A DNA stretch of 30,941 bases from a virus. The position numbers and the translations under genes were made by a program. This document shows positions 4,120 to 30,941 of the stretch, piece after piece. The stretch covers positions 1 to 30,941 of the IMG/VR virus record IMGVR_UViG_3300030406_000634; one strand, written 5' to 3'. Under the pieces are notes generated by a model that did no database searches, was not told where the DNA came from, and was given only the letters and a program-made list of their open reading frames with translations. Each line of letters begins with the position of its first letter. The stretch's first letter is position 1.

Positions 4120-4450
4120 AGAGTATAGGTCTACTACGCTTTGCTTGTAAAGACAAGTATCTATTGATTGTTTTGTTACCTAATGCGGTAATAAAATATT
4201 TTCTTACTAGTCCAGGTGCTTTTGGATTTGCATACAGTATGCGTTCATTATCTTGCATCTGTACTGATATGATAAATCCATAGCGATGCTCGAGCTGGTG
4301 TAATGTCGTGCTGATTGTTCCATGCTTGAGATCAGGCAGCTCTTTCCGAAAAGTAGAATATGATACTCTTGGTGGTTTTGGGTTTGACTTATCTGTATAT
4401 AGTTTTACTGTTGCTAATATACGAACTTGATTAGACGTTAGTTTTTTCAT
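4058..4450 (-). CDS. Winged-helix DNA-binding protein, 130 aa
   Basis: The N-terminal half fits a winged helix: LTSNQVRILATVKLY (helix 1), YSTFRKELPDL (helix 2), HGTISTTLHQLEHRYGFI (helix 3), then a short hairpin-like wing (ISVQMQDNERILY). The C-terminal half is basic. The frame extends to 4486, but that extension lies inside a GC-rich hairpin (4470-4493). ATG 4450 has AAGGATA upstream, so I start there. With the HTH gene that follows it forms a small regulator pair. MarR- or replication-initiator-like relatives are possible; no precise family is claimed. Confidence 0.55.
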   Translation of the reverse strand: MKKLTSNQVRILATVKLYTDKSNPKPPRVSYSTFRKELPDLKHGTISTTLHQLEHRYGFIISVQMQDNERILYANPKAPGLVRKYFITALGNKTINRYLSLQAKRSRPILYEKLFGTANNSIRESEGQFA

Positions 4451-16879: not shown

Positions 16880-19143
16880 TGCGTAAAGCAAAGATACCTC
16901 TTACCAATTTTCAGTATGGTGAGCTAAGTCCTAGTTTAATATCCAGAACAGATACAAGAGTCTATAATGCCTCTGCTCAAAAAGTTGAGAACTTCTTTTT
17001 AAGGGCAGAAGGTGGTGTTATTAAACGTGCTGGTTTATCTAAGATATATGAGTTTGATACAACTGTTGATGCTACAAAAGTACAGCAACATAGATTAGTT
17101 CCTTTTATATTTTCTGATGATGAAAGATACATTGTATCCTTAGAGCATCAGAAGATTAGAGTATTTCAGATTGATACTAATAATACTGTTTCATTAGCAA
17201 CTACAATTACACAAGATGCAAATAGTGCTACATTACCTTTTACAAATACAAACATACATCAGGTTACATATGCACAATCTGGTGATGTAATGTTTATTGC
17301 TCATCAAACATTTATGGTTAGAAAGCTTGTTCGTACTGGATTAACATCGTTTCAAGTAGAAACAAAAACATTCGATACACAATCTGCTGGAGCAAAAATA
17401 TACCAGCCATACTTTCAGTTCCAAGATCTTGGTGTAACGTTAGATCCGTCAGCTAGTTCTGGCAATGGGATTACTCTTACTACCAGTGCCGCTTACTGGG
17501 ATTTGACTGGATCACAATCAGGTGGTAACTATCCTGATTCAAAACATGTTGGTACAACTATTCGTTATCATGGTCAGGAGATAGAGATTACTTCTGTTCA
17601 GTCTGCTACTCAGGCGACTGGAAATTGTTTAGCGACACTGAAGAAAAAACTTAAAGTAGATTCTTTTCGTACAGATAATGGAGTTGCTACAGTAACAGTT
17701 ACATTGGTTAATCATGGTTTTTCTGCTAGTGATGCTTTTGTTATCTCTAATGCTGATACTGTTGGTGGTATAAGCACAAGTAATTTAAATGGCTCTCGAA
17801 CTGTTTCAGAAGTGATAGATGATAATACTTTTACGTTTACCGCTGGTGGTAATGCTAATGATTCTACTGTTGGTGGGGGAACTCCTTTCTTAGAAACTCA
17901 TGCACCAGCCACTAACTGGTCAGAGCAATCGTATTCTACACTTAGAGGTTTTCCTGGAGCTGTTACTTTTCATCAGAATAGATTATGGTATGGAGGTACA
18001 ATATCACAACCTGATGGATTGTGGGCTAGTAAGTCTAATGAGTTCTTTAACTTTGATACTGGTGAAGCCGCGGATAATGATTCTATAGATATTCGTGCAT
18101 CTATTGGTGAAGTAAATACAATCCGACATTTAGTATCGAATAGAGATCTTCAAGCCTTTACAACTACAGATGAATTTATTGTGCCAGCTTTTGTTGAGAA
18201 GCCTACAACCCCTACAAATGCTACAATCAAAAGACAAACTTCTTTTGGTTCTTCTTTTGTGAAGCCTTATGTTTATGATGGTGCAACAGTGTATGTGCAA
18301 GGATCAGGGGAGATAGTTCGAGAAATGCTTTTTGATGATGGTCAGCAAGCCTATACCGGTCAACCTATCTCAAGCTTATCATCTCATTTAATTAAGAATC
18401 CTATTCAAGCAACTACATTAGCTGGTGGTATTGATCGTGCTGAGTCATATTATTTCTTAGTAGATGCTGATGGTACTCTAGCTATATTCAACTCTAATAG
18501 AGCAGAGCAAAGATATGGCTGGACACAGTTTACGAGTCAAGGTTCTTTTCATTCTCTTTGCACAGTTGATACTAGGGTGTATGCTGTAGTTAAGTTTGAT
18601 AAAGGAGATGGTACAAATAAATATATTCTCTGTGAGTTTGATAGTAGCTTTAATACTGATATGGCTAAAACATATTCTGGTAGTAACGGAGTCTTCTCCG
18701 TCAGTGCTGACTTTGCTAACGGTGCAGTCCTCGATGTGGTCAGTGGCACTCATTATCTTGGTCAGTTTACTGTGGCTAGTGGGAACATCGATGTATCGGC
18801 TGTGGACAATTCTCTTTCATCAGCAGAAATAGGATTTAAGTTTGATGTTACACTTACAACAAATCCTATCGATACAGCTACTCAACAAGGAGTATTATCT
18901 GGTGAGCCAAGAAGTCTAAATAAAGTTATTGTAGATTTAAGTAATACTTTGTCTTGTTCTGTTAACAATAAAAATTTAATTATTAGACAAGTAACAGATG
19001 ATTTAAGTCAAGCGCGAGTAGCAATTACTGGTAAGAAAGAATTTAGATTACTAGGATTCTCAAAAGATCCTCAAGTAACTGTAAGTCAATCTGCACCATT
19101 ATCATTACAAGTTAATTCAATTATAGCGGAGATTACATTTTAA
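16879..19143 (+). CDS. Tail tubular protein B, T7 gp12-like nozzle
   Basis: A 754-residue, beta-rich protein. It opens with NFQYGELSPSLISRTDTRVY and KVENFFLRAEGGVIKRAG, signatures of the T7 gp12 family. Later blocks such as FHQNRLWYGGT and GEVNTIRHLVSNRDLQAFTT fit its beta-propeller-like core. It forms the tail nozzle below gp11. AGGAGGAGTTA precedes ATG 16879. Length is close to that of T7 gp12 (about 794). Confidence 0.9.
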   Translation: MRKAKIPLTNFQYGELSPSLISRTDTRVYNASAQKVENFFLRAEGGVIKRAGLSKIYEFDTTVDATKVQQHRLVPFIFSDDERYIVSLEHQKIRVFQIDTNNTVSLATTITQDANSATLPFTNTNIHQVTYAQSGDVMFIAHQTFMVRKLVRTGLTSFQVETKTFDTQSAGAKIYQPYFQFQDLGVTLDPSASSGNGITLTTSAAYWDLTGSQSGGNYPDSKHVGTTIRYHGQEIEITSVQSATQATGNCLATLKKKLKVDSFRTDNGVATVTVTLVNHGFSASDAFVISNADTVGGISTSNLNGSRTVSEVIDDNTFTFTAGGNANDSTVGGGTPFLETHAPATNWSEQSYSTLRGFPGAVTFHQNRLWYGGTISQPDGLWASKSNEFFNFDTGEAADNDSIDIRASIGEVNTIRHLVSNRDLQAFTTTDEFIVPAFVEKPTTPTNATIKRQTSFGSSFVKPYVYDGATVYVQGSGEIVREMLFDDGQQAYTGQPISSLSSHLIKNPIQATTLAGGIDRAESYYFLVDADGTLAIFNSNRAEQRYGWTQFTSQGSFHSLCTVDTRVYAVVKFDKGDGTNKYILCEFDSSFNTDMAKTYSGSNGVFSVSADFANGAVLDVVSGTHYLGQFTVASGNIDVSAVDNSLSSAEIGFKFDVTLTTNPIDTATQQGVLSGEPRSLNKVIVDLSNTLSCSVNNKNLIIRQVTDDLSQARVAITGKKEFRLLGFSKDPQVTVSQSAPLSLQVNSIIAEITF

Positions 19144-19586
19144 TGGATATTTTTTCAGCATTAGGTTTTGCAAGTTCTTTATTTGGTGCGGCGGCAACTA
19201 TTGAAAGAGGTCGTGAGATTCGCCGACAGAAAGAAGCAGAAGCACAACAGTTAGAGCAAGAACGTAGACAAGCTGAGATTAATACACTCCAGCAACATAA
19301 TGATTTACTAGCAGAACTAGATCAGGCTGAAGATGTTAATAGAGCTACCTTTGCTTTTCTTAATAGAGATGATGATAATTCTGTTAGAGCTTTCAATGAA
19401 GCACAGACAGAGATATCAGATAGAGATATAAGACGTATTGATGCACAAGGGTTATATGCTAGTGAGCAGTTACGATTAAGAAGTGTTGGTGCTTTAAGAG
19501 CTGGTCGAGCCGCAGAAAGGGCAGCTAACTTAAATGCTATGGCTACTATATTCTCTGCATCATATAAGGCTACACAAACAGGATAG
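19143..19586 (+). CDS. Internal virion protein, T7 gp14-like
   Basis: A 147-residue protein with a hydrophobic N-terminal helix (FSALGFASSLFGAAATI, residues 3-19) followed by a long Glu/Gln/Arg-rich helix, probably coiled coil (22-60), and a basic second helix. This is the layout of the ejected gp14-type core protein, which inserts into the outer membrane at infection. It overlaps the nozzle gene stop as TAATG without its own ribosome binding site, so its expression is coupled. Confidence 0.75.
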   Translation: MDIFSALGFASSLFGAAATIERGREIRRQKEAEAQQLEQERRQAEINTLQQHNDLLAELDQAEDVNRATFAFLNRDDDNSVRAFNEAQTEISDRDIRRIDAQGLYASEQLRLRSVGALRAGRAAERAANLNAMATIFSASYKATQTG

Positions 19587-19591
19587 TTATA

Positions 19592-22500
19592 ATGGTAGTA
19601 CGACAGAAACAAAGATTTAGAAATCAACAGATAGGTGTGATTCGTACTGATATGTCAGTAGCAAATAGTCTTGCTGATATATCAAATAGCATGGAGCGTA
19701 TATCTAATACAGCTTTTAGAGAAGCCGCAGTTCGAGCAGAAGAGAAAGGCAGAAAGTTCGTAGCAGATTTACCTGACAATCAAATCATGGGTATTGATGA
19801 AAAAGGTCAACCAGTAAATTTATTAAATGATCTTAGGACATCTCTCTCTACTAAAGGCTATGGAACAATAGCCAAAAGAACTATCGAGCGTGAGATAAGA
19901 AGACGTTTTGCAACAGTTGCTAAAAATACTTATGTAAATAAAGCCGCAGAACTATCGGCTAAATATAGGTTTCAGCCAACAAAATTCCAAGAAGAGTTTT
20001 CTAACTTTCTATTAACACAAGCCCAGCCTTATGATGGAGAATATCGTAATGCAATATTAGATGGTGGAACTGCATATGGTGCGGCAGTCAAAAGTAATAT
20101 TGTTAAAAACTCACTTATAAACCAGCAAAGAATATCCGCTGAGAACTGGTCAGTAGAAGCAGAAAAAACATACTCTAATGATTATGCGTTAGGTATAGCT
20201 AATCTTGGTAGTGATATTGCTGGTTTTGAGAATGTTATGAAAGAAGATCTTGCTCATAACGAAACTAAAAATATTGCTACTAATCTACAGTTTAATGGCG
20301 CACTTAAAATAAATGGTAACGGTTATACTAATACTAGGAAGTCAAACTATGGTCAGGGTGTTGTTATGGGATTTCACCAGCGACTACTTGATTCAGATCC
20401 TTTATTAGCAAACGATTTACAGCGTGCTATTACAAATAAAAACAAAACACTTCGAGGACTAGATAAACTTAAAGAAAAGCTGGGTGAAGAAGGTGTTAAA
20501 CGTATATCAAAAGCTTTATCTTTTGTAGAAAACAATGGAGATATACTTGCTCTTGAGCGATCTGTTACAAAACAAAAGGTAGTAGCATCTAATAGAAATT
20601 CTTTACTCTCTGCTCAAGAATCAGAGATAGATGAATCATTCCAAGAAACAGTATTGGAAAATAATGAAACTATTCAAAATGAATTACTAACACCAGACTT
20701 TACTGATCGATTTGAAAAAGAAATAAGTATAGCTAATGATTCTGTTGAGGTCGGTAAGATACTCGAGAGATTTATAAATGATACATACAGTAAAGGTCTT
20801 ACTAAGCAAAAGATAACTGTCGGTGATAGAACACTAAAAGCTAAGAACTCTCCTTTAACACAGACACAAGTAAGCGGAGTTATTGCAGATCTTCGTAAAT
20901 CAGCAGAAACAGAAATAGCGTCTAGGCTTATAAACTCTACAAAAGATACTGCTGGTAATGTAGATCTTGTAAAAGCTAATAGAATAATACGCTATCTAGG
21001 TGATACTGACGTTAGAAATTTAGCTGGTTTTTCTCAACCAGAGATTACTAGACTAAGACAGTTTGAAGACTTTACATCTCTACCAAGAGAGGTTGTAGAG
21101 AAGATGTATCCATTTGGTCCACAGATACAGCCCTCACAATATTCTAAATCTATTCGAGCAAGTATTGCTAATAGTATGGCAAATATTATTGATGATATTA
21201 CTTCGAGCAAAGGAATTACAGAAAAACAAGCGGCTACTCAGTCATACTTTAAGCAGTTAGATGTAGGTGCTGTTATGATGGGTAATAGCTCAACTCCTGA
21301 AAGAGAAAATGTAGATGAGTATGTTTTTGGAGATATTCCCAACTTACCTAAAGAGCAACGTCCTCGATTATACTTTGATCCTAGTTTTGTAACGAGTCCA
21401 GATTTTGCTGATGCACGAACACGCATAGCACAACTCGTTATCAATCAAAATGCTATGCCAGAATCTTTAAGAAAATCAATGCAAGCTTTTGTTGCTGGAA
21501 ATAATATCAATTCCCAACAGTTTGCAGCTTATCGAACATTTATAAAAGGTTTTGTTGAAGATACAACATTTGATGAAAAAACTAATACTGTTGCTCAAAA
21601 AAATGTTTTTGCTAATCATTCTGTAAATACTGAGGTTACATTTATTAAACAGCTTGAGGCGGCTATTGAAATAAATGGTGAGGAGAACGCTTTTTCTACA
21701 TATCAAAAGTTTATTGAATTACAAAATGATAGAGAAAGACTTAACAATGCTATTACTGAAATATTCCAAAAAGAAGAAAAGTATGGAGGTAAATCTGGTC
21801 GTTCTCTAATGTTTGAGATTGTTGCTAGAAAAACTGGTGGCAGAAATACTGTTCCCTATCGATTGCTAACCCAGCAGAATGGTGCGGCTCTTGATATGTA
21901 TATATATAGAAAGCTATCTACAAACAGAGGATTCGAATCTACAAAAGATTTTGGTAAGTTTATAGAACAAACACTGAAGCAAAGTTTTGGTAGTGGTGAT
22001 GGGTTTATTCTTGAATCACATATGATAAATGCCAGCGATGGTGAGAAGTTAACACGCTTTGCTCCTATGATTCTTTTTGGTGGCAATAAGGAATATGCAA
22101 AAGATTTTAAAAAGTTTTCAGCAGATCAGGTTTCTGTCTTAACTGATGGTAAGGTAAATCTTATTGCTGGAACAACAAATGGTTTTGGTGGGGATGATAC
22201 ACAGGTTGGTAACTTCTTTTCTCTTAGAGGTGTTACAGCAGAATCACAAGCACTGAAGGGATTTCTTATTCCTGAGAATGATGCTTCTATTGTACCTATT
22301 ACTTCTCTTGATGAAGAAGAGTTTGAGATTCGAGAGCAGAATAAAATACGCACATCTTTTCTTTTATATGTATCTTACAACGGAGAGCTTGTGCCTTACA
22401 TCCGTGAGATTAGTCCTAATGAAAGAGATTTTGTTCGTATATCTTTGAAAGATTATGCACAGTTTAAGAACTTTGAAAAAGGTATTGTGATTCCAGCAGA

Positions 22501-22747
22501 AGCAGTTACCCAGCCAGATGATAAGAGCTTCTTATCTATAGATCTAAATAAAGAAACACCAGCTGAAACAGAAGAAAGAAAACAAGAAGAGCAAGATAAA
22601 ATGGAATCCTTAGAACTTCTTCAACAACAACTTATGACTCCAGGTGTTCTTGATAGTAAGAAATCTAAGCTGGTTGAAAGAATTATGCGTACACCAATGT
22701 CGCCAGAAGCAAAGATAAGAGAGCTACAAAAGATAAGAGATCAATGA
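19592..22747 (+). CDS. Large internal virion protein, 1051 aa (gp15 position)
   Basis: A very long, charged, largely helical protein: AEEKGRKFVADLPDNQI near residue 50, many Lys/Glu helices, and a Glu-rich C-terminus (from about 980). By size and position it corresponds to T7 gp15, an ejection tunnel protein released into the host with the DNA. I see no lytic transglycosylase or endopeptidase motif, so a cell-wall-degrading role is not supported. AGGATAGTTATA precedes ATG 19592. The stop overlaps the next start (ATGA). Confidence 0.75.
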   Translation: MVVRQKQRFRNQQIGVIRTDMSVANSLADISNSMERISNTAFREAAVRAEEKGRKFVADLPDNQIMGIDEKGQPVNLLNDLRTSLSTKGYGTIAKRTIEREIRRRFATVAKNTYVNKAAELSAKYRFQPTKFQEEFSNFLLTQAQPYDGEYRNAILDGGTAYGAAVKSNIVKNSLINQQRISAENWSVEAEKTYSNDYALGIANLGSDIAGFENVMKEDLAHNETKNIATNLQFNGALKINGNGYTNTRKSNYGQGVVMGFHQRLLDSDPLLANDLQRAITNKNKTLRGLDKLKEKLGEEGVKRISKALSFVENNGDILALERSVTKQKVVASNRNSLLSAQESEIDESFQETVLENNETIQNELLTPDFTDRFEKEISIANDSVEVGKILERFINDTYSKGLTKQKITVGDRTLKAKNSPLTQTQVSGVIADLRKSAETEIASRLINSTKDTAGNVDLVKANRIIRYLGDTDVRNLAGFSQPEITRLRQFEDFTSLPREVVEKMYPFGPQIQPSQYSKSIRASIANSMANIIDDITSSKGITEKQAATQSYFKQLDVGAVMMGNSSTPERENVDEYVFGDIPNLPKEQRPRLYFDPSFVTSPDFADARTRIAQLVINQNAMPESLRKSMQAFVAGNNINSQQFAAYRTFIKGFVEDTTFDEKTNTVAQKNVFANHSVNTEVTFIKQLEAAIEINGEENAFSTYQKFIELQNDRERLNNAITEIFQKEEKYGGKSGRSLMFEIVARKTGGRNTVPYRLLTQQNGAALDMYIYRKLSTNRGFESTKDFGKFIEQTLKQSFGSGDGFILESHMINASDGEKLTRFAPMILFGGNKEYAKDFKKFSADQVSVLTDGKVNLIAGTTNGFGGDDTQVGNFFSLRGVTAESQALKGFLIPENDASIVPITSLDEEEFEIREQNKIRTSFLLYVSYNGELVPYIREISPNERDFVRISLKDYAQFKNFEKGIVIPAEAVTQPDDKSFLSIDLNKETPAETEERKQEEQDKMESLELLQQQLMTPGVLDSKKSKLVERIMRTPMSPEAKIRELQKIRDQ

Positions 22748-25700
22748 GAAGATTAGACGAAAAAGTTTATAGCTATGATCCAAAGCTAAGATTTACTGAA
22801 CAAGTATTTCCAGATCAAGCACAGAGTCCTTCTTGGTTTGATACTCTTAATGCTTCTCTTGCTTATCAATATCAACCCTACTTAAATGCAATGTATAATC
22901 GCAGTCGCTATGCACGTATACAACCTGATCCAGAATATGTACCAGCGAATGATATTGAAGGCTATGAACAGTATAAAAATGATTTGCTACATGCAAAAAC
23001 ACAAGAGCATATGAATGATCTAAAAGCACAAATAGATCATATGAAGCAAACACGAGAAACTATTGCTAACTCTTCACTAATGAATCAATTTACAACCCAG
23101 CTATTCGATCCTATTAATTTATTTGCTTTGCCTTTTGGCGGCCCAACTTTAGGTATAGCTAAATCAGCAATTAGAGTTGGAGCTGGTGCTACTGTTATTC
23201 AAGCTCCGCTCGAGGCTGGTAGACAAATCTATGATCCTACTTCTACACCAGCAGAGTCAGTAATAAATATGGGAACTACTTTTGCTATTGGTTCTACTTT
23301 GGGCGGTCTGTTGGCAGTGCCTAGTACAATGAGAGCAAACACATTCTTAAAAACTCAACAAGAAATATCTGAGATGAATAATGCTATAGCCTTAACATTA
23401 CCAGAACAAAGACTGCAAATAGGTAATAGAGATCTAAGAATATTTGATCCAGAAGGATTAAAGATAGATATGAGTAGATTTTCTGATGCTGATGTACAAC
23501 GACTATCTAATGAGTTTGAGGCAAAAGCATATTTGCAAACAGAATTTGGTTTCTTTGATACTAAAGTAACTCAAGACTTTTCTAAATATATGAAAGGTGA
23601 AAATGCATTACGCACACTCGAAACTAAAAAAGGTGCGCCTAAGAGTGCGTATAGTTTAAAAGAAAATCTATTTACACGAAGCTGGTTATACAAAGGTATA
23701 ACTACACCATTCAAAAGAACTCTACAAAATAAACGCATAAGCCAAGAAACGAAGTTTGATTTCATTAGGCTAATGGGAGATCATGGTGTCGCTATGGAGG
23801 GAAATCAAGTTGGTGTTAAAACTCCTCATTCTGTCTATATCAAGGCATCTGAATATGAAGGAGAGTGGGTAGCAGTACATGACCAGCTTATGACTTTGTA
23901 TGGAGAGGCATCAGGTAAAGGTAAACCATTTGGTGCATCTTTTGATTATGGTACATTTTTTCGTAGAGGTTATGATGATTGGCTTTCTGAAACATGGAAA
24001 AAGAGTTTACTGCAACCAGATAATCTTAATGAAATAGAAAAAGGAGCAGTTCAAGCATGGAATGGATTCTTTGAAAAATGGGATGATAGACTGCAAGCAT
24101 CTGGTTTAATTGCAAATGAAGCAAATTTATCTGCAAGAAATAGACAGTTATCTACTATTCTTGATGACTATGGTAAAGAATATAACTTAACTAAAACTAT
24201 TAAATTAAAATCTGGTGAAGAAATTAAACAGCAATTATCTGCAAGAGTTGACGATAGAATAAGTGAAGTATTTGAAGACTTAGATAATAATGCATCTATT
24301 AAACCTAACGAACGAAATATACTTAAAAATCAAATAGCAAAACTAAAAGACGAAAGAGATCAAGTTAGAGCTAATCTTCAAAAGCAAGAAGGTGATGTTC
24401 CAAATCCAAGTCTTAAAGAAAAGTTCTTCCCTCGATTCTGGAATAAGCAAGCTATCAATGATCGTATGGAAGACTTTAAAGAAATACTTAGAAAGCATTT
24501 CAAAACAAAAGCTTATGATATTGTCAAGACAACTACACCTCGAGGTAACGTTAAGTTTGAAAGACAGCTGGTAAATCTATCAGAAAAAGAAATAGAATCT
24601 AAGATAGATGCTACCATAAATAAGATACTCTATGGACAAGACGATCCTATGGCTGATGATGCAATATTCTATGGGTATGGTAAGTCTAAGCATTTTAAAC
24701 ATAGACAGATTGAGATAGCAAATAGTGAGGTTGTTGATTTTATAATACAGAATCCAGTGCAAGTTATGATGGCATACACTAATCGAACAGCGGCACAACA
24801 TGAGTTTGTAAAGAGTTTTGGTCATGCTGATCCTGAGATTGTTGCTAATAATATTCTTCTCCGTGAAGCTAAACAAGGAATGGATCTAAATAATATAAAC
24901 AAACTTAGAAGAGATTTCTTGCATAGCTATGATCGTGTTGCTGGTGTTGTCTTGCAGAATCCAGAAGCCCTCAGTAACAGAACAGCAGATGTGTTAAAGA
25001 ACCTTGCTACTCTTAATTATCTTGGTAGTGCTGGTTTCTCTACTCTTCCTGATGCCGCGGCAATAATGATGACTAATGAACTCAAGCCTTTGTTCAAGCA
25101 GTTATTTAGAGTTTTAAATGATGAGCGTGTTCGTATGAACGCCAATGAAGCACGACTTGCTGGAGAAATGTTAGAGATTCTGAAAGGCGATGTGCATATG
25201 CGTCTTATGGAAGATAGCATGAATAATGTTTTTAATAATGGGATTGTATCAAAAACTAAGAATGTTTTCTTTCAATTAAATTTATTAGGTCCAATGACAC
25301 GCATTATGAAGCATATGTCATCTATGGCACACTCTCATACTATTATTGATTACTCTGTAAAGATGGCACAGAAAAGAGCAAATAAGTTAGAGCTAGAATA
25401 TTTATCACGCTATGGCATGGACTTAGATGATGCTAAAAAGATAGATCAGCTTGTTAAAGATAATGTTATTGAGAATAGCAATGGTTTTTATTTGGCGAAT
25501 ACCAAAGCCTGGAAGGATGAAAATACAGCTAGAATGTTTAGAAGAACTCTTAATGCTACTGTAAAGAATACTGTTCTTATGGGGTCACCAGCAGATAAAC
25601 CAATAAATGTTGATGGTGTTTTTTATATTCCTATGCGTGTTGCTAGGATAATGGGTATGAAAGAGGATAGACGAATAAAGGGCTATGCTCGAGTAGAGAA

Positions 25701-26238
25701 CGCTTTGATTGGATTGCCATTTCAATTCTATTCTTATTCTTTTGCCGCACTAAACAAGATAACCACTTTATATACACAAGACCAAGTTCTAAATAGAGCA
25801 GTTGGCATAGCGGCATCAATGGGTCTAGCGTATATGGGTATGCAACTAAAATATAGATCAAATCCTTTTGTATTAGAGCAAATGCCATTAGAAGATAAGA
25901 TAGCACGATCCTTCGATATGTCTGGATTAGCCGCTTTATATTCTGATATGTATTATACCGGAATACAAATGTCTTTAGCACTAGGAGGTCCAGACTTGAC
26001 TATGGGAATGATTAGTCCTAAGTTCCCACAAGAGTATAATCCAGTGGATGCTATACTCGCTCCACTAGGATCAGGACCAAGTATTGCGTATGATTTAGGT
26101 ACTAGTGCATATAAGTTTACACAAGGCGATTATGACGGTGCAAAAGATTTTATTAGCAATTTACCTTTTGCTAGGTTATGGTTTCTAAGGGACTTTACAA
26201 ATGATTTAGGTCGTACTGTTGCTGGAAGATTGGGGTAA
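22744..26238 (+). CDS. Giant internal virion protein, 1164 aa (gp16 position)
   Basis: A giant ejection protein. The block FDPINLFALPFGGPTLGIAK, then GAGATVIQAPLEAGRQIYDPT (quoted in part), around residues 118-165 is a hydrophobic segment often seen near the N-terminus of large podovirus internal proteins. A long helical middle with KDERDQVRANLQKQE follows, and near the end there are short hydrophobic stretches (IGLPFQFYSYSFAALNK, AVGIAASMGLAYMG). It corresponds by place to T7 gp16, but no N-terminal transglycosylase domain is visible. It begins on the previous stop (ATGA). Confidence 0.75.
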   Translation: MRRLDEKVYSYDPKLRFTEQVFPDQAQSPSWFDTLNASLAYQYQPYLNAMYNRSRYARIQPDPEYVPANDIEGYEQYKNDLLHAKTQEHMNDLKAQIDHMKQTRETIANSSLMNQFTTQLFDPINLFALPFGGPTLGIAKSAIRVGAGATVIQAPLEAGRQIYDPTSTPAESVINMGTTFAIGSTLGGLLAVPSTMRANTFLKTQQEISEMNNAIALTLPEQRLQIGNRDLRIFDPEGLKIDMSRFSDADVQRLSNEFEAKAYLQTEFGFFDTKVTQDFSKYMKGENALRTLETKKGAPKSAYSLKENLFTRSWLYKGITTPFKRTLQNKRISQETKFDFIRLMGDHGVAMEGNQVGVKTPHSVYIKASEYEGEWVAVHDQLMTLYGEASGKGKPFGASFDYGTFFRRGYDDWLSETWKKSLLQPDNLNEIEKGAVQAWNGFFEKWDDRLQASGLIANEANLSARNRQLSTILDDYGKEYNLTKTIKLKSGEEIKQQLSARVDDRISEVFEDLDNNASIKPNERNILKNQIAKLKDERDQVRANLQKQEGDVPNPSLKEKFFPRFWNKQAINDRMEDFKEILRKHFKTKAYDIVKTTTPRGNVKFERQLVNLSEKEIESKIDATINKILYGQDDPMADDAIFYGYGKSKHFKHRQIEIANSEVVDFIIQNPVQVMMAYTNRTAAQHEFVKSFGHADPEIVANNILLREAKQGMDLNNINKLRRDFLHSYDRVAGVVLQNPEALSNRTADVLKNLATLNYLGSAGFSTLPDAAAIMMTNELKPLFKQLFRVLNDERVRMNANEARLAGEMLEILKGDVHMRLMEDSMNNVFNNGIVSKTKNVFFQLNLLGPMTRIMKHMSSMAHSHTIIDYSVKMAQKRANKLELEYLSRYGMDLDDAKKIDQLVKDNVIENSNGFYLANTKAWKDENTARMFRRTLNATVKNTVLMGSPADKPINVDGVFYIPMRVARIMGMKEDRRIKGYARVENALIGLPFQFYSYSFAALNKITTLYTQDQVLNRAVGIAASMGLAYMGMQLKYRSNPFVLEQMPLEDKIARSFDMSGLAALYSDMYYTGIQMSLALGGPDLTMGMISPKFPQEYNPVDAILAPLGSGPSIAYDLGTSAYKFTQGDYDGAKDFISNLPFARLWFLRDFTNDLGRTVAGRLG

Positions 26239-26241
26239 GAT

Positions 26242-29235
26242 ATGACAATAGCAGTTTCAAATAATACACCAAGAGTTTCATACACTGTATCTCAAGGTGC
26301 TACACAAACTTCTTTCACTGTTTCCTTTGAATTTTTTGCAGAAGCAGATCTGAATGTTTATGTAGATGGCACTCTTAAAACAATAACTTCAGACTACACA
26401 GTATCAGGTGGTAATGGCTCTACTGGTACAGTTACGATGAGTGTGACTGGTGCTACTGGTGGATCAACTGTAGTTATTACTAGAGATATTGCACTCGAAA
26501 GGACAACTGATTTCCCAACTCAAGGTGCCTTTAATATTTCTTCTCTGAATACAGAACTAGATAAACTCGTAGCTATAGATGCAGATGTTGATGATACTAT
26601 TAGTAGATCTATACGATTAAAAGATCAGGACGATTCAGCATCAATGGAGTTGCCGCTCAAAGCATCGAGAGTAGGTACAGTTATGGCTTTTAATGCTACT
26701 ACTGGTGCTGTTGAAGCTGGACCAAGTATTTCTTCTGTAACGACTGTAGCAACGCAGTCAGCTAACATAAATACTGTAGCTGGTATAAGTTCAAATGTTA
26801 CTACTGTAGCTGGTATACAGGCAAATGTAACGACTGTAGCTGGTATTGCAAGCAATGTTACGACAGTTGCTGGAGCTATATCAAATATAAATGCTTTGGC
26901 GGCATCTGATGTTATAACTGATATGTCATTGTTAGCTACATCTGATGTTATAGCGGATATGGCTTTGCTTGCTAATGCTGATGTTATAGCAGATATGAAT
27001 ACATTAGCTGTAACTGATGTTATCAACGATATAAATTTACTAGCAACTTCAGATATTGTAAGCGATTTAAATACACTAGCAACATCTGACATCGTTTCAG
27101 ATATAAATACATTGGCAACGTCTGATATTGTAAGTGATTTAAACACTCTAGCTACAAGTGATATTGTTTCTGATATTAATACACTAGCTACTAGCGATAT
27201 TGTTACTGACCTAAATTTGTTAGCAACTTCTGATTTTGTTTCGGATTTAAATACGTTAGCCACTACTACAAATGTAAATAATATTTCTACTGTTGCTGGA
27301 ATCTCATCAAATATTTCTACTGTTGCTGGCATTTCTGCCAATGTAACTACAGTTGCTGGTATACAAGCTAACGTGACATCTGTTGCTGGTATAGCAAGTA
27401 ATGTTACAACTGTTGCAAGCAATATATCTGGTGTAAATAGTTTTGCTGATAGGTATAGAGTTGCTTCTTCTGCACCGACTTCATCGTTAGATGTTGGTGA
27501 TTTATACTTTGATACGACTGCTAATGAGTTGAAGGTATATAAATCATCCGGTTGGGCGGCGGCTGGTTCTACAGTAAACGGAACGTCTGCTCGATTTACT
27601 TACAACATATCTGGCACACCAACATCAGTCACAGGAGCTGATGCAAACGGCAATACTCTAGCGTATGATGCTGGATTTATTGATGTGTATTTGAATGGGG
27701 TCAGATTGTCTGGTGCTGACATAACGATTACGTCTGGTGATACTGTGACCTTTGCGTCTGCTTTAGCAGATGGTGACTTAGTTGATATTGTTGCGTTTGG
27801 TACGTTCAGCGTAGCAAATATTACATCAACTGGTGCGTTAAACTCTGGGTCTATTACCAGCGGATTTGGAAACATCGATACTGGCTCGTCTACAATCACA
27901 ACAACTGGTGCTATATCTGGTGGAGCATTGTCAGGCACATCACTTGATTTGAATGGTGGTGAATTAATTCTTGATGCGGATAATGATACGTCTATTACGG
28001 CTGACACAGATGACCAGATAGATTTTAAAACTGGTGGTACTGATAGAGTGGTTATTGATAGCAGTGGGAAAGTTCTTCTTGGAACAACCCAACAACGCGG
28101 TCACATGACTTTACAAATTGAAGGAGATGGAAGTGGCTCTACTGCACAAGGTTCTATATTTTTACGAAGAGGACTTAGCACTTCTAGCATAGGTGGTAAT
28201 GTTGGTGCTGACTTAGGCTTAATACAATTTGGCGATAATGATGGTGGTATATATGCAAAGATAGAAGCAAAAAGTGATGCGTCTGCTGCTAATAATGACT
28301 ATCCCGGCAGACTACAGTTTTTTACCACAGCAGATGGTGCGTCTAGTCCTACTGAACGCATGAGGATTGATTCTTCAGGCAATGTTGGAATTTCTGCTAT
28401 TCCGTCAGGAGAAGCTGCTGCTGCTCATGTTGTAAGATTAGGTGACCAAGTATGTATTGCTGAATATGATGATGGCTCTAATCCTGAACAATTTAATCTT
28501 TTTCATAATTCAGATTCTTCTGAAACATATATAGAAACAGGTACAGCATCAGTTATTCAACAAAGAGCAGGAGAAATAATTTTTAAAAATGCTGCATCAG
28601 GTAGTGCTGGTGCTGCTATTAGTTTTGCAGAACGCATGAGGCTAACATCAACTGGACGTTTATTATTAGGAACAACAGACGATGTTGACCAAGCTATGAG
28701 AATTAAAGTAGATGGCTCATCTCCTACTTATGGAATAAAAATACACAACAGCAAAACATCAAGCACAAGAAATTTTATTGAATTTGGAGTAAACTCATCA
28801 TTTAGTCCTGTAGGTTCTATTAAATCAAATGGAAGTTCTACAAGTTATAATACAAGTTCAGACTACAGACTAAAAGAAAATGTAGTTACAGATTGGGATG
28901 CAACTACAAGACTAAAACAACTTAAACCATCAAGATTTAATTTTAAGATAAATAAAGATCAAACAGTTGATGGATTTCTAGCACATGAAGTATCGAGTAT
29001 AGTTCCAGAAGCAGTTACTGGCGAAAAAGATGCTATGACAAAAGAGGTGCTTTATGTAGATGAAGATAAAATACCAGAAGGCAAAAAAGTGGGTGATGTC
29101 AAGACACCCTCTGATATTAATCCACAAGGCATAGACCAGAGCAAACTTGTGCCACTGCTTACAAAAGCACTACAAGAATCACTGGCTCGTATTGAAACAC
29201 TTGAAGCTAAAGTAACAGCATTGGAGGGTAAATAA
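26242..29235 (+). CDS. Tail fibre with T7 gp17-type N-terminus and S74 self-cleaving chaperone
   Basis: A 997-residue fibre. Residues 1-145 match the T7 gp17 N-terminal domain that docks on the tail (SFTVSFEFFAEADLNVYVDG, then TDFPTQGAFN). A shaft of short tandem repeats covers about 177-396. A repeated module LILDADNDTSI...IDSSGKVLLGT lies near 575-615. The C-terminus is an intramolecular chaperone of the peptidase S74 type: SDYRLKEN has Ser873 and Lys878 five apart, as in the known Ser-Lys cleavage dyads, so cleavage before Ser873 would release about 125 residues. The stretch from about residue 680 has GCWGC sites that the rest of the genome lacks. Confidence 0.9.
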   Translation: MTIAVSNNTPRVSYTVSQGATQTSFTVSFEFFAEADLNVYVDGTLKTITSDYTVSGGNGSTGTVTMSVTGATGGSTVVITRDIALERTTDFPTQGAFNISSLNTELDKLVAIDADVDDTISRSIRLKDQDDSASMELPLKASRVGTVMAFNATTGAVEAGPSISSVTTVATQSANINTVAGISSNVTTVAGIQANVTTVAGIASNVTTVAGAISNINALAASDVITDMSLLATSDVIADMALLANADVIADMNTLAVTDVINDINLLATSDIVSDLNTLATSDIVSDINTLATSDIVSDLNTLATSDIVSDINTLATSDIVTDLNLLATSDFVSDLNTLATTTNVNNISTVAGISSNISTVAGISANVTTVAGIQANVTSVAGIASNVTTVASNISGVNSFADRYRVASSAPTSSLDVGDLYFDTTANELKVYKSSGWAAAGSTVNGTSARFTYNISGTPTSVTGADANGNTLAYDAGFIDVYLNGVRLSGADITITSGDTVTFASALADGDLVDIVAFGTFSVANITSTGALNSGSITSGFGNIDTGSSTITTTGAISGGALSGTSLDLNGGELILDADNDTSITADTDDQIDFKTGGTDRVVIDSSGKVLLGTTQQRGHMTLQIEGDGSGSTAQGSIFLRRGLSTSSIGGNVGADLGLIQFGDNDGGIYAKIEAKSDASAANNDYPGRLQFFTTADGASSPTERMRIDSSGNVGISAIPSGEAAAAHVVRLGDQVCIAEYDDGSNPEQFNLFHNSDSSETYIETGTASVIQQRAGEIIFKNAASGSAGAAISFAERMRLTSTGRLLLGTTDDVDQAMRIKVDGSSPTYGIKIHNSKTSSTRNFIEFGVNSSFSPVGSIKSNGSSTSYNTSSDYRLKENVVTDWDATTRLKQLKPSRFNFKINKDQTVDGFLAHEVSSIVPEAVTGEKDAMTKEVLYVDEDKIPEGKKVGDVKTPSDINPQGIDQSKLVPLLTKALQESLARIETLEAKVTALEGK
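26770..27430 (+). repeat. Tandem repeats in the fibre shaft
   Basis: Two repeat types are nested symmetrically. A 10-residue (30-base) unit TVAGIxxNVT occurs at both ends (about 26770-26890 and 27290-27430). A 12-residue (36-base) unit TSDIVSDLNTLA, more divergent at first, fills the centre (about 26900-27270), with several nearly identical copies in a row. The regular Ile/Val/Leu spacing suits a trimeric coiled or beta shaft. Copies differ mostly at third codon positions. Confidence 0.85.
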
Positions 29236-30255
29236 ATGAGTAACGCACGTAACCTTGCCAACCTTCTTGGCACAAAAACAAAAGTCAAAGATGTAGATGT
29301 TGATGGTACAGAGCTTATTCTTGATGCTGATGGGGATACGAGCATAGAAGCAAGTTCTGATGACACGATTGTAATCGACACAGGAGGTTCAGAGAGAGCC
29401 AGAATAGATGGAAGTGGGAACTTATTTGTTTCAGCAACGGCAACAAGTGGGTTTCAATCTAGTTCATCTGAATCAGGCAGTATTATTTATGGTGCTGGTG
29501 GTATTGCATCAAACTCAGCAAGTAATGATGTTACTGCTGTGTTTAATCGACTTGGTAATGATGGGAGTATTATACAACTTAAAAAAGATGGTAGCACTGT
29601 GGGGAATATTGAAACCTCTGGTGGAAATTTAATTGTTCAAGGAAGCACCGCCACTGGAAAAACAGGAATTAAATTTGGTGGTGCAGAATTTATACCACAA
29701 GATAATGGAAATAGTGACAATGGAGTAGATTTAGGAATGTCCTCTGCACGTTTCAAAGACCTCTATCTAGGTGGTGGAATATACGTTGGTGGCACTGGGT
29801 CGGCAAATTATTTAGATGACTACGAAGAGGGAACGTGGACACCAGCTTTTGTTGGTGCAACTAATAGTCCTGGTCTTCACAATAATGTAGGTAGATATAC
29901 GAGAATAGGAAGATTAGTTGTAGTGCAATTTTTTCAGCAAACATCTGGAAGTCCAGCTCCTACATTCAGTAATAATAGTGCTGCTTTTCAAATTAGTGGA
30001 GTTCCTTTTTCAGTTCAGGGTCATGGCTACACAGGAAGTCAAGGTAGTATGAATGCTCAAGCATTTCATTATAATGGAAGTAATAATACACAAAGCACTC
30101 AAGCAGATTTTGTTTCACCCAACATAACTGGTAGTGACCTATTAGAGTTTCAAGTTACAGATAGTGGTTCAACAAGGGGTGTCGTTAATAATACTGGTGC
30201 TAAAGCATCACCTTATGTAATTGAGGTAACAATATCTTATTTCACAGATGCGTAA
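29236..30255 (+). CDS. Second fibre-like protein, 339 aa
   Basis: The protein opens MSNARNLANLLG, typical of fibre-associated proteins in marine phages, then repeats the module GTELILDADGDTSI...ERARIDGSGNLFVS found in the main fibre. A Gly/Ser-rich beta region follows (VDLGMSSARFKDLYLGGGIYVGG), then a terminal domain with DDYEEGTWTPAF (about 194-205) and NNVGRYTRIGRLVVVQ, seen in phage tip proteins. No S74 motif is present. GGAGGGTAAATA lies just before ATG 29236. It probably forms a distal receptor-binding tip or an alternative fibre. Confidence 0.75.
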   Translation: MSNARNLANLLGTKTKVKDVDVDGTELILDADGDTSIEASSDDTIVIDTGGSERARIDGSGNLFVSATATSGFQSSSSESGSIIYGAGGIASNSASNDVTAVFNRLGNDGSIIQLKKDGSTVGNIETSGGNLIVQGSTATGKTGIKFGGAEFIPQDNGNSDNGVDLGMSSARFKDLYLGGGIYVGGTGSANYLDDYEEGTWTPAFVGATNSPGLHNNVGRYTRIGRLVVVQFFQQTSGSPAPTFSNNSAAFQISGVPFSVQGHGYTGSQGSMNAQAFHYNGSNNTQSTQADFVSPNITGSDLLEFQVTDSGSTRGVVNNTGAKASPYVIEVTISYFTDA

Positions 30256-30269
30256 AAGGAGAGGATAAA

Positions 30270-30521
30270 ATGGCAATAACAAAAGAAGTAGTACAAGATA
30301 AAATTGAGATAGTAGGTGAGTTTAAAAAAATTCATGTGCGAACAGCAACTGTAATAAAAGAAGATGGTGTAGAGTTATCACGTTCTTTTCATCGTCATGT
30401 TGTAAATCCAAATAGCGATAGTTCAAATGAAAGCGCTGATGTAAAAGCATTAGTAACACAGTTTCATACAGACGAAGTTAAAAAAGCATTTACTGATTAC
30501 TTAGCAAAACAAAATTTATAA
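30270..30521 (+). CDS. Small protein, 83 aa, downstream of the fibres
   Basis: AAAAGGAGAGGATAAA before ATG 30270 is a strong site. The protein is soluble: beta-rich first half (KIEIVGEFKKIHVRTATVI) and a helical end (DEVKKAFTDYLAKQ). The motif SRSFHRHVVNP is familiar from short proteins next to fibre genes in marine phages, but its function is unknown to me. It lies between the fibre module and the partial gene at the right edge. Confidence 0.65.
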   Translation: MAITKEVVQDKIEIVGEFKKIHVRTATVIKEDGVELSRSFHRHVVNPNSDSSNESADVKALVTQFHTDEVKKAFTDYLAKQNL

Positions 30522-30530
30522 AGTTACTAA

Positions 30531-30941
30531 ATGCTCGACCCATTAACAATTAGTGCCGCCGTTGCAACAGCTAACACGGCATTTAATGGGTTGAAGCGTG
30601 CTTTTCAGGTTGGCAAAGATATTCAGAGTATGGGGAATGACTTATCCAAATGGATGAGTGCCGCATCAGATATCGAAAACGCACAGAAGAGAGCTAAGAA
30701 TCCTTCTTTCATTACTAAACTTACACGCAGAGGTAGTATTGAACAAGAAGCTGTTGAAGCACTGACTGCTAAGAAACGACTCGAAGAACAGCGATACGAA
30801 CTCCAACAGTTTATTAAGTTTAGGCATGGTGTTAATGCATGGAATGAACTTCTTAAAATGGAAGCAGACATACGCAAACGTAGGCAGAAAGAGATATATG
30901 ATAAACAAGTATTGCGACAAAAGATAATTACAGTTATCGTT
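30531..30941 (+). CDS. Partial gene at the right edge, 137 codons visible
   Basis: Open from ATG 30531 to the end of the window without stop. The start MLDPLTISAAVATANTAFNG is followed by a helix (GLKRAFQVGKDIQSMGNDL) and a long Lys/Arg/Glu-rich helical region up to RRQKEIYDKQVL. The visible end is hydrophobic (IITVIV), which suggests the start of a membrane segment. Similar proteins occur after fibre genes in marine podoviruses; a role in lysis or tail is possible but unproven. There is no clear ribosome binding site; 9 bases separate it from the previous stop. Confidence 0.65.
   Translation, partial: MLDPLTISAAVATANTAFNGLKRAFQVGKDIQSMGNDLSKWMSAASDIENAQKRAKNPSFITKLTRRGSIEQEAVEALTAKKRLEEQRYELQQFIKFRHGVNAWNELLKMEADIRKRRQKEIYDKQVLRQKIITVIV

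Follow-up and report, generated by a model that had tools for sequence, protein, structure and literature searches.

The tail fibre of a marine phage, whose hosts are probably SAR11-type bacteria, carries a restriction-site fingerprint opposite to that of the rest of its genome. The window analysed here is the whole 30,941-nucleotide stretch (positions 1-30,941) of IMG/VR record IMGVR_UViG_3300030406_000634, which is AT-rich (37% GC) and in which the phage backbone (1..26241) avoids the words GCWGC, GAGAC, GGCC and GAATGC and tolerates GATC. Recombination and early genes of this backbone lie on the minus strand; those for terminase, portal, capsid, tail and internal virion proteins lie on the plus strand. 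We put at roughly 0.84 the probability that GCWGC was purged from the backbone by host Type II restriction and that the fibre tip was imported from a GCWGC-tolerant, GATC-avoiding pool. (GCWGC stands for GCAGC and GCTGC, which are mutual reverse complements, and the asymmetric word GCAGC therefore marks the identical set of sites.)

Site counts were compared with a maximal-order Markov model and with codon-preserving shuffles (n=500) in which protein and codon usage are fixed; counts written a/b are observed/expected. GCWGC sites occur at 4336, 19521, 21524, 28285, 28414, 28417, 28420, 28591, 28612 and 29980, and the three sites before 28.2 kb, the six GCTGC at 28285-28616 and the one at 29980 that a preliminary description had picked out from the letters alone are thus exact. 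The Markov model expects 39.1 sites in 1-28200, where no other 5-mer is as strongly under-represented as GCWGC; the neighbouring word GCSGC is not avoided there (44 vs 30.6 expected), and GCAGA and CCAGC are over-represented in the backbone. GCWGC stands at 7 vs 5.6 expected in 28201-30550, so both the avoidance and its reversal in the fibre, first proposed by eye, hold up under a formal model. Codon-preserving shuffles give 3 vs 38.0 in the backbone genes (minimum over 500 shuffles, 28), with GCSGC at 41 vs 8.8, and 7 vs 6.9 in the fibre at 28039-30255. The window's 46 GCSGC sites, of which well over 30 had been estimated for the first 28.2 kb, are divided between 44 before that point and two at 30555 and 30660, matching the reported return from ~30553; the intervening stretch indeed has none, although this is uninformative, with 0.5 (Markov, 28201-30550) to 1.4 (shuffles, 28039-30255) expected by chance. 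Since 28414, 28417 and 28420 form a single GCTGCTGCTGC run, the fibre tip has five independent GCWGC places; at the residual backbone rate it would hold ~0.5, for which a hand Poisson calculation gives ~2e-4 with five events and 2e-6 with seven.

Alanine codons show where the difference lies. Before a codon beginning with GC, the backbone uses GCC 14 times, GCG 22 times, GCA twice and GCT never, as the early impression of Ala-Ala spelling had it, whereas elsewhere 543 of its 624 Ala codons are GCT or GCA; the fibre uses GCT at all such junctions (7/7). Overall Ala usage is alike (fibre GCT.45, GCA.45; backbone GCT.44, GCA.38), and the difference is therefore confined to the junction context. 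The nearest sister, G003 (L003; portal protein ~90% identical), is opposite in GCWGC state, with 62 GCWGC and 6 GCSGC: of the 41 places where its GCWGC sites could be aligned, 20 are GCSGC in the window, mostly through synonymous changes, and the control word GCWGA is mostly kept between the two. The suggested check on sister genomes gave low backbone counts in G001 (3) and G002 (2) and the opposite state in G003. Backbone depletion is selection on one specific word, as the top-ranked depletion, the on/off relatives and the replaced sites all attest, and neither codon usage nor protein explains it; among explanations of the avoidance, host restriction is much the strongest, codon taste being excluded.

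Relatives switch this and other words on and off. We retrieved 80 of them via the portal protein and scanned all 4-6-mers across 60 contigs, some of them non-independent. GCWGC counts among portal relatives are bimodal (0/33, 1/33, 1/26, 0/27 and 0/44 vs 40/41, 70/73 and 44/50); scored as GCAGC, the word is off in 26 contigs and on in 31, with corresponding off/on figures of 15/37 for GATC, 9/31 for GAGAC, 12/19 for GGCC, 10/14 for GAATGC and 27/2 for CCAGG (CCWGG). On a tree of 46 portal rows, GCWGC, GATC and GAGAC have each switched state five times or more. The dichotomy recurs in cultured SAR11 phages, GCWGC being off in HTVC031P (0/39), HTVC021P (0/41), HTVC109P (0/46) and Hodr (3/41) and on in Kolga (56/58) and Lederberg (74/63), and cultured pelagiphages are likewise on or off for GATC and GGCC. 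Because strain HTCC1062 is infected both by avoiding (HTVC031P, HTVC021P, Hodr) and by tolerant phages (HTVC023P, Lederberg, HTVC028P), the fingerprint reflects natural hosts and not the isolation strain. Hodr (EXVC031P, OQ414635, host HTCC1062) is the nearest cultured relative (portal 59% identical in amino acids; 69.5% DNA identity over 34% of the query) and resembles the window in its GCWGC count, in GAGAC (0/15) and in tolerating GATC; unlike the window, it does not avoid GGCC or GAATGC. A phage-borne methyltransferase as the cause of tolerance was ruled out for PF00145 (C5) and PF01555 (N6/N4), the two families to which the search was limited and neither of which has a match in 44 phage records. 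In Lederberg (MT647605), a 'putative methylase' annotation at 22398-22829, matching neither family, lies inside that phage's longest GCWGC-free gap (20543-26083).

Import of the window's fibre is supported by a shared domain of 262 bp (28360..28621, plus strand) that contains five of the tip's seven GCTGC sites (28414, 28417, 28420, 28591 and 28612). Its DNA is 90.5% identical to L082, in which all five sites are present, 94.9% identical to L085 over 197 bp, and 84% identical to L083 and L084; the GCTGC just 5' of it (28285..28289) lies in DNA without a match in the fetched loci. Homologues of the window's terminase, portal, capsid, tail and internal proteins are absent from both L082 and L085, and a test with ten proteins from the window's backbone and fibre found none in L082, which encodes ribonucleotide reductase and gp46/47-like genes, its NrdA being closest to pelagiphage enzymes; the L085 adaptor protein is closest to those of DSL-LC04 and HTVC023P. 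Both contigs avoid GATC and tolerate GCWGC (L082: GATC 2/50, GCWGC 41/40; L085: GATC 0/10, GCWGC 15/15). With domain and sites shared by GCWGC-tolerant, otherwise unrelated phages, we conclude that the GCTGC sites arrived as part of the domain. A protein search with the domain returned mostly relatives at 30-44% identity, with no match among phage records.

A second word extends the discordance. GATC occurs once in 26624-30255, where 14.7 are expected, vs 90 with 100 expected in the backbone, and the window's two largest GATC gaps lie in the fibre region; this depletion matches the fingerprint of the pool containing L082 and L085. The switch comes directly after the conserved N-terminal anchor (26242..26772, plus strand) of the tail-fibre protein (open reading frame (ORF) 26242-29235), which is common to at least 80 marine phage contigs and still has GATC, the last at 26623, while tolerance of GCWGC starts only past ~28039. 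The foreign stretch, which the preliminary description had begun at 28280, thus starts earlier, at ~26624, by its GATC fingerprint. In the proximal fibre with its LED repeats (26624..28038, plus strand), GATC (0 vs 4.9) and GCWGC (0 vs 2.6) are both absent and GCSGC is present; identity to L232 is 88% over 26673-27698, against 74% for the two backbones, and we trace 26.6-28.0 kb to a background that avoids both words. Segments with distinct restriction histories, drawn from an exchange pool, make up a mosaic fibre: a foreign origin of its distal part stands, on the 90-95% identity of the shared domain and the GATC discordance, but not as one module bordered at 28280.

Further blocks of the plus-strand fibre locus have their own relatives. 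The C-terminal Peptidase_S74 domain (chaperone of endosialidase; 28858..29019) contains the sole GATC of the module (28957), and the block around it (28845-29033) shares 81-85% identity with L215 and L186. A second fibre-like gene of 339 amino acids (29236..30255; GATC 0 vs 3.8) carries the one GCTGC at 29980 and the genome's only GAATGC (30051), and 29555-29834 within it is 91.8% identical to L086. Beyond a small ORF (30270..30521; 76-82% nucleotide identity in G006, L209 and L086) follows a downstream anchor, an open ORF at 30531..30941 in which GCSGC reappears. This block is 92-97% identical in nucleotides in L200, L204, L220, L231 and L227 despite differing fibres, with backbones only ~70-75% alike, and is a possible homology anchor for cassette exchange.

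Backbone and distal fibre were compared at 66 loci sharing the N-terminal anchor, with codon-sampled expectations; several of these loci are near-duplicates, and the discordance counts overstate independence. In the window's subclade, fibres attached to GATC-tolerant backbones have 11 GATC vs 137 expected, and the backbones themselves 735 vs 740. Outer-clade fibres are at expectation (85 vs 79); therefore the method does not generate the GATC effect. None of the 8 classed loci with a GATC-avoiding backbone has a GATC-tolerant fibre, and 26 of 43 with a GATC-tolerant backbone have a GATC-free one; for GCWGC, an avoiding backbone with a tolerant fibre occurs in one locus, the window, which is the sole genome of this kind found, and the opposite discordance in six. 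The fibre is thus almost always at least as restricted as the backbone (discordant loci 26 to 0 for GATC, 6 to 1 for GCWGC). Loci L262-L265 (G030:9552-13545) mirror the window, with a backbone tolerating both words and a fibre with 0-1 GCWGC and no GATC. Fibre and backbone identity differ by more than 3 points in 42 of 59 pairs, and fibre cassettes more than 90% identical occur in ~69%-identical backbones, GATC-avoiding and GATC-tolerant alike; L229 and L233 have fibres 94.9% and backbones 69.2% identical, with opposite fingerprints. Features of fibre exchange are seen: the N-terminus is conserved, the distal part diverges, and between lineages the distal DNA is closer than the backbones are. 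Finished genomes of three cultured pelagiphages with GATC-tolerant backbones have their longest GATC-free gap over or beside tail-fibre genes (HTVC119P 28035-33450, 0 vs 10.5; HTVC200P 28178-37142, 0 vs 19.4; Kolga 17324-22496, 0 vs 10.1); these regions were picked for the gap, and the test lies in their coincidence with fibre genes, not in the count.

Restriction of the backbone and import of the tip would fit together as follows. The phage lineage would have been long exposed to hosts with a Type II enzyme cutting GCWGC, to which the pattern points (presumably a BbvI-like or TseI/ApeKI-like enzyme would fit), and selection stripped the sites, chiefly by synonymous W-to-S changes in Ala-Ala codons. 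The tail-fibre gene is a cassette bounded by the N-terminal anchor and the downstream ORF, with domains shuffled by recombination with co-infecting marine phages; domain shuffling is shown by the DNA identity of fibres, which exceeds that of their backbones. The swap may have taken place in a co-infected host or via shared intermediates, and the distal part, centred on 28360-28621, brought the five GCTGC sites and the GATC desert from the donor pool. Either the youth of the import or a move, brought about by the new fibre, to hosts without a GCWGC enzyme may explain why the sites persist.

Two other accounts of the depleted backbone dispense with selection on a restriction site. If GCG and GCC before GC- codons were a stylistic codon or dinucleotide preference, and the fibre differed in codon usage, the avoided word would fall mostly at Ala-Ala codons, as it does; however, the depletion survives with codon usage and protein fixed, the identical amino acids in G003 are written GCT or GCA, and Ala usage in fibre and backbone matches. 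The codon-preserving shuffle and the sister comparison already refute this preference, and its likelihood is next to nil. Mutational loss, in which host methylation of GCWGC was followed by deamination, draws on the tendency of GCWGC-type C5 methylation to favour C-to-T changes, yet the replacements are GCSGC, from W to S and counter to a 37% GC composition, rather than GTWGC or GCWAC; C-to-T or G-to-A changes fit a few of the 41 sites at most, and the excess of GCSGC goes against it as well. We regard this loss as most improbable.

Concerning the fibre, it might have been inherited with the backbone, the GCWGC pressure since having been lost and sites re-accumulating by chance, first in the fibre. 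Fibres evolve fast, and the backbone does hold three sites; against this, that count is level with those of G001 and G002, the module's sites are ancestral, being common to L082 and L085, and the module has a separate GATC depletion, so we consider such inheritance unlikely. A chimeric metagenome assembly might also have fused a foreign fibre to the backbone: fibre repeats are a known assembly hazard, and the ends of the contig are close by. A second contig, L081, nevertheless reproduces 21645-29227 at 99.99% and has the backbone, the fibre and all six sites between 28285 and 28612; the downstream anchor is equally far from the fibre start in L200, L204 and L231, and finished cultured genomes show like discordance, which makes a chimera very unlikely.

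Several points weigh against restriction of the backbone and import of the tip. No GCWGC restriction enzyme or host was found among 385 genomes searched for restriction-modification (R-M) systems, and the pressure cannot stem from HTCC1062 alone. The contigs of L082 and L085 are incomplete; L081, possibly from related samples, ends at 29227, so that the 3' junction is placed by synteny only; and the module is short. Fibres also fall below codon sampling in GANTC and GCGC, and the fibre expectation is therefore not perfect. The host check proposed at the outset turned up one related R-M system, which behaves as GCNGC-type: a complete C5-methylase and Bsp6I-family endonuclease pair beside gyrB in L432 (G100:C32), a 1.2-Mb alphaproteobacterial genome of 28% GC and the sole representative of its order among the genomes examined. 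We rejected it as the GCWGC source, as this genome avoids GCWGC (61/155) and GCSGC (32/128) alike and likely encodes a GCNGC system. Portal relatives gave no host either: their matches are scattered over metagenome-assembled genomes of different phyla, probably as misbinned phage contigs or distant prophages.

Other words are missing too. GAGAC/GTCTC (0 vs 25.4), GGCC (3 vs 21.4) and GAATGC (0 vs 9.9) are depleted in 1-28200 by the Markov model, and over the whole window GAGAC/GTCTC is absent vs 25-29 expected, GGCC occurs 3 times vs 21-23, and the only GAATGC is that in the fibre gene; it looks as though the phage had encountered more than one restriction enzyme, probably several. CATG is another on/off word, seen in the one relative L074 (1 vs 47 expected). 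GANTC is low in fibres (0.42 of expectation in the inner clade, 0.51 in the outer) and normal in backbones. GAGCAC/GTGCTC is near-absent throughout the clade (26 vs 365 expected in the window and ~60 relatives; also 0/9 in both MEP301 and CRP-902); it never switches, no relative being 'on', and its cause may not be restriction.

Tail-fibre modularity is textbook knowledge, and the window shares with Peptidase_S74, T7-like and marine podovirus fibres an N-terminal anchor, variable distal domains, the S74 chaperone and cross-type domains; in contrast to that work, provenance is read here from restriction-site content, and cassettes cross restriction backgrounds mostly one-way. Site avoidance is established: complete or almost complete elimination is reported for roughly a tenth of viral genomes (Rusinov et al. 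2018, PMC6286503), and plasmids offer an analogue (Shaw et al. 2023, PMC10359461). In the window, too, a lytic-type dsDNA phage has lost nearly all copies of an orthodox Type II-type site; the comparison here differs in running among close relatives and between modules within one genome, the fibre is opposite to the backbone, and no matching R-M system was found. The methylation motif GANTC (CcrM-type) has been tied to SAR11 phage phylogeny, with GCWGC unmentioned (PMC9516812); GANTC is not avoided in the window's backbone. In the literature searched we found no report setting restriction-site avoidance against tail-fibre mosaicism within genomes; each is known by itself, and here one is used to read the other in individual genomes.

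Site content is thus a tracer of the origin of a host-range module and of the hosts passed through, giving a way to spot recent fibre imports and host jumps, and it offers a map, drawn from sequence alone and open to testing, of the restriction enzymes of uncultivated marine bacteria. We tentatively suggest, at somewhat less than even odds, a cassette pool with its own restriction memory, in which purged cassettes enter any backbone, site-bearing ones seldom enter restricted backbones, and the pool ratchets towards 'universal donor' DNA. If so, the fibre of the window would have been imported very recently, or the phage would have jumped to hosts free of GCWGC restriction. SAR11 is generally regarded as poor in restriction-type defences; the on/off fingerprints, if this suggestion is true, would imply unrecognised Type II restriction in wild SAR11-type hosts.

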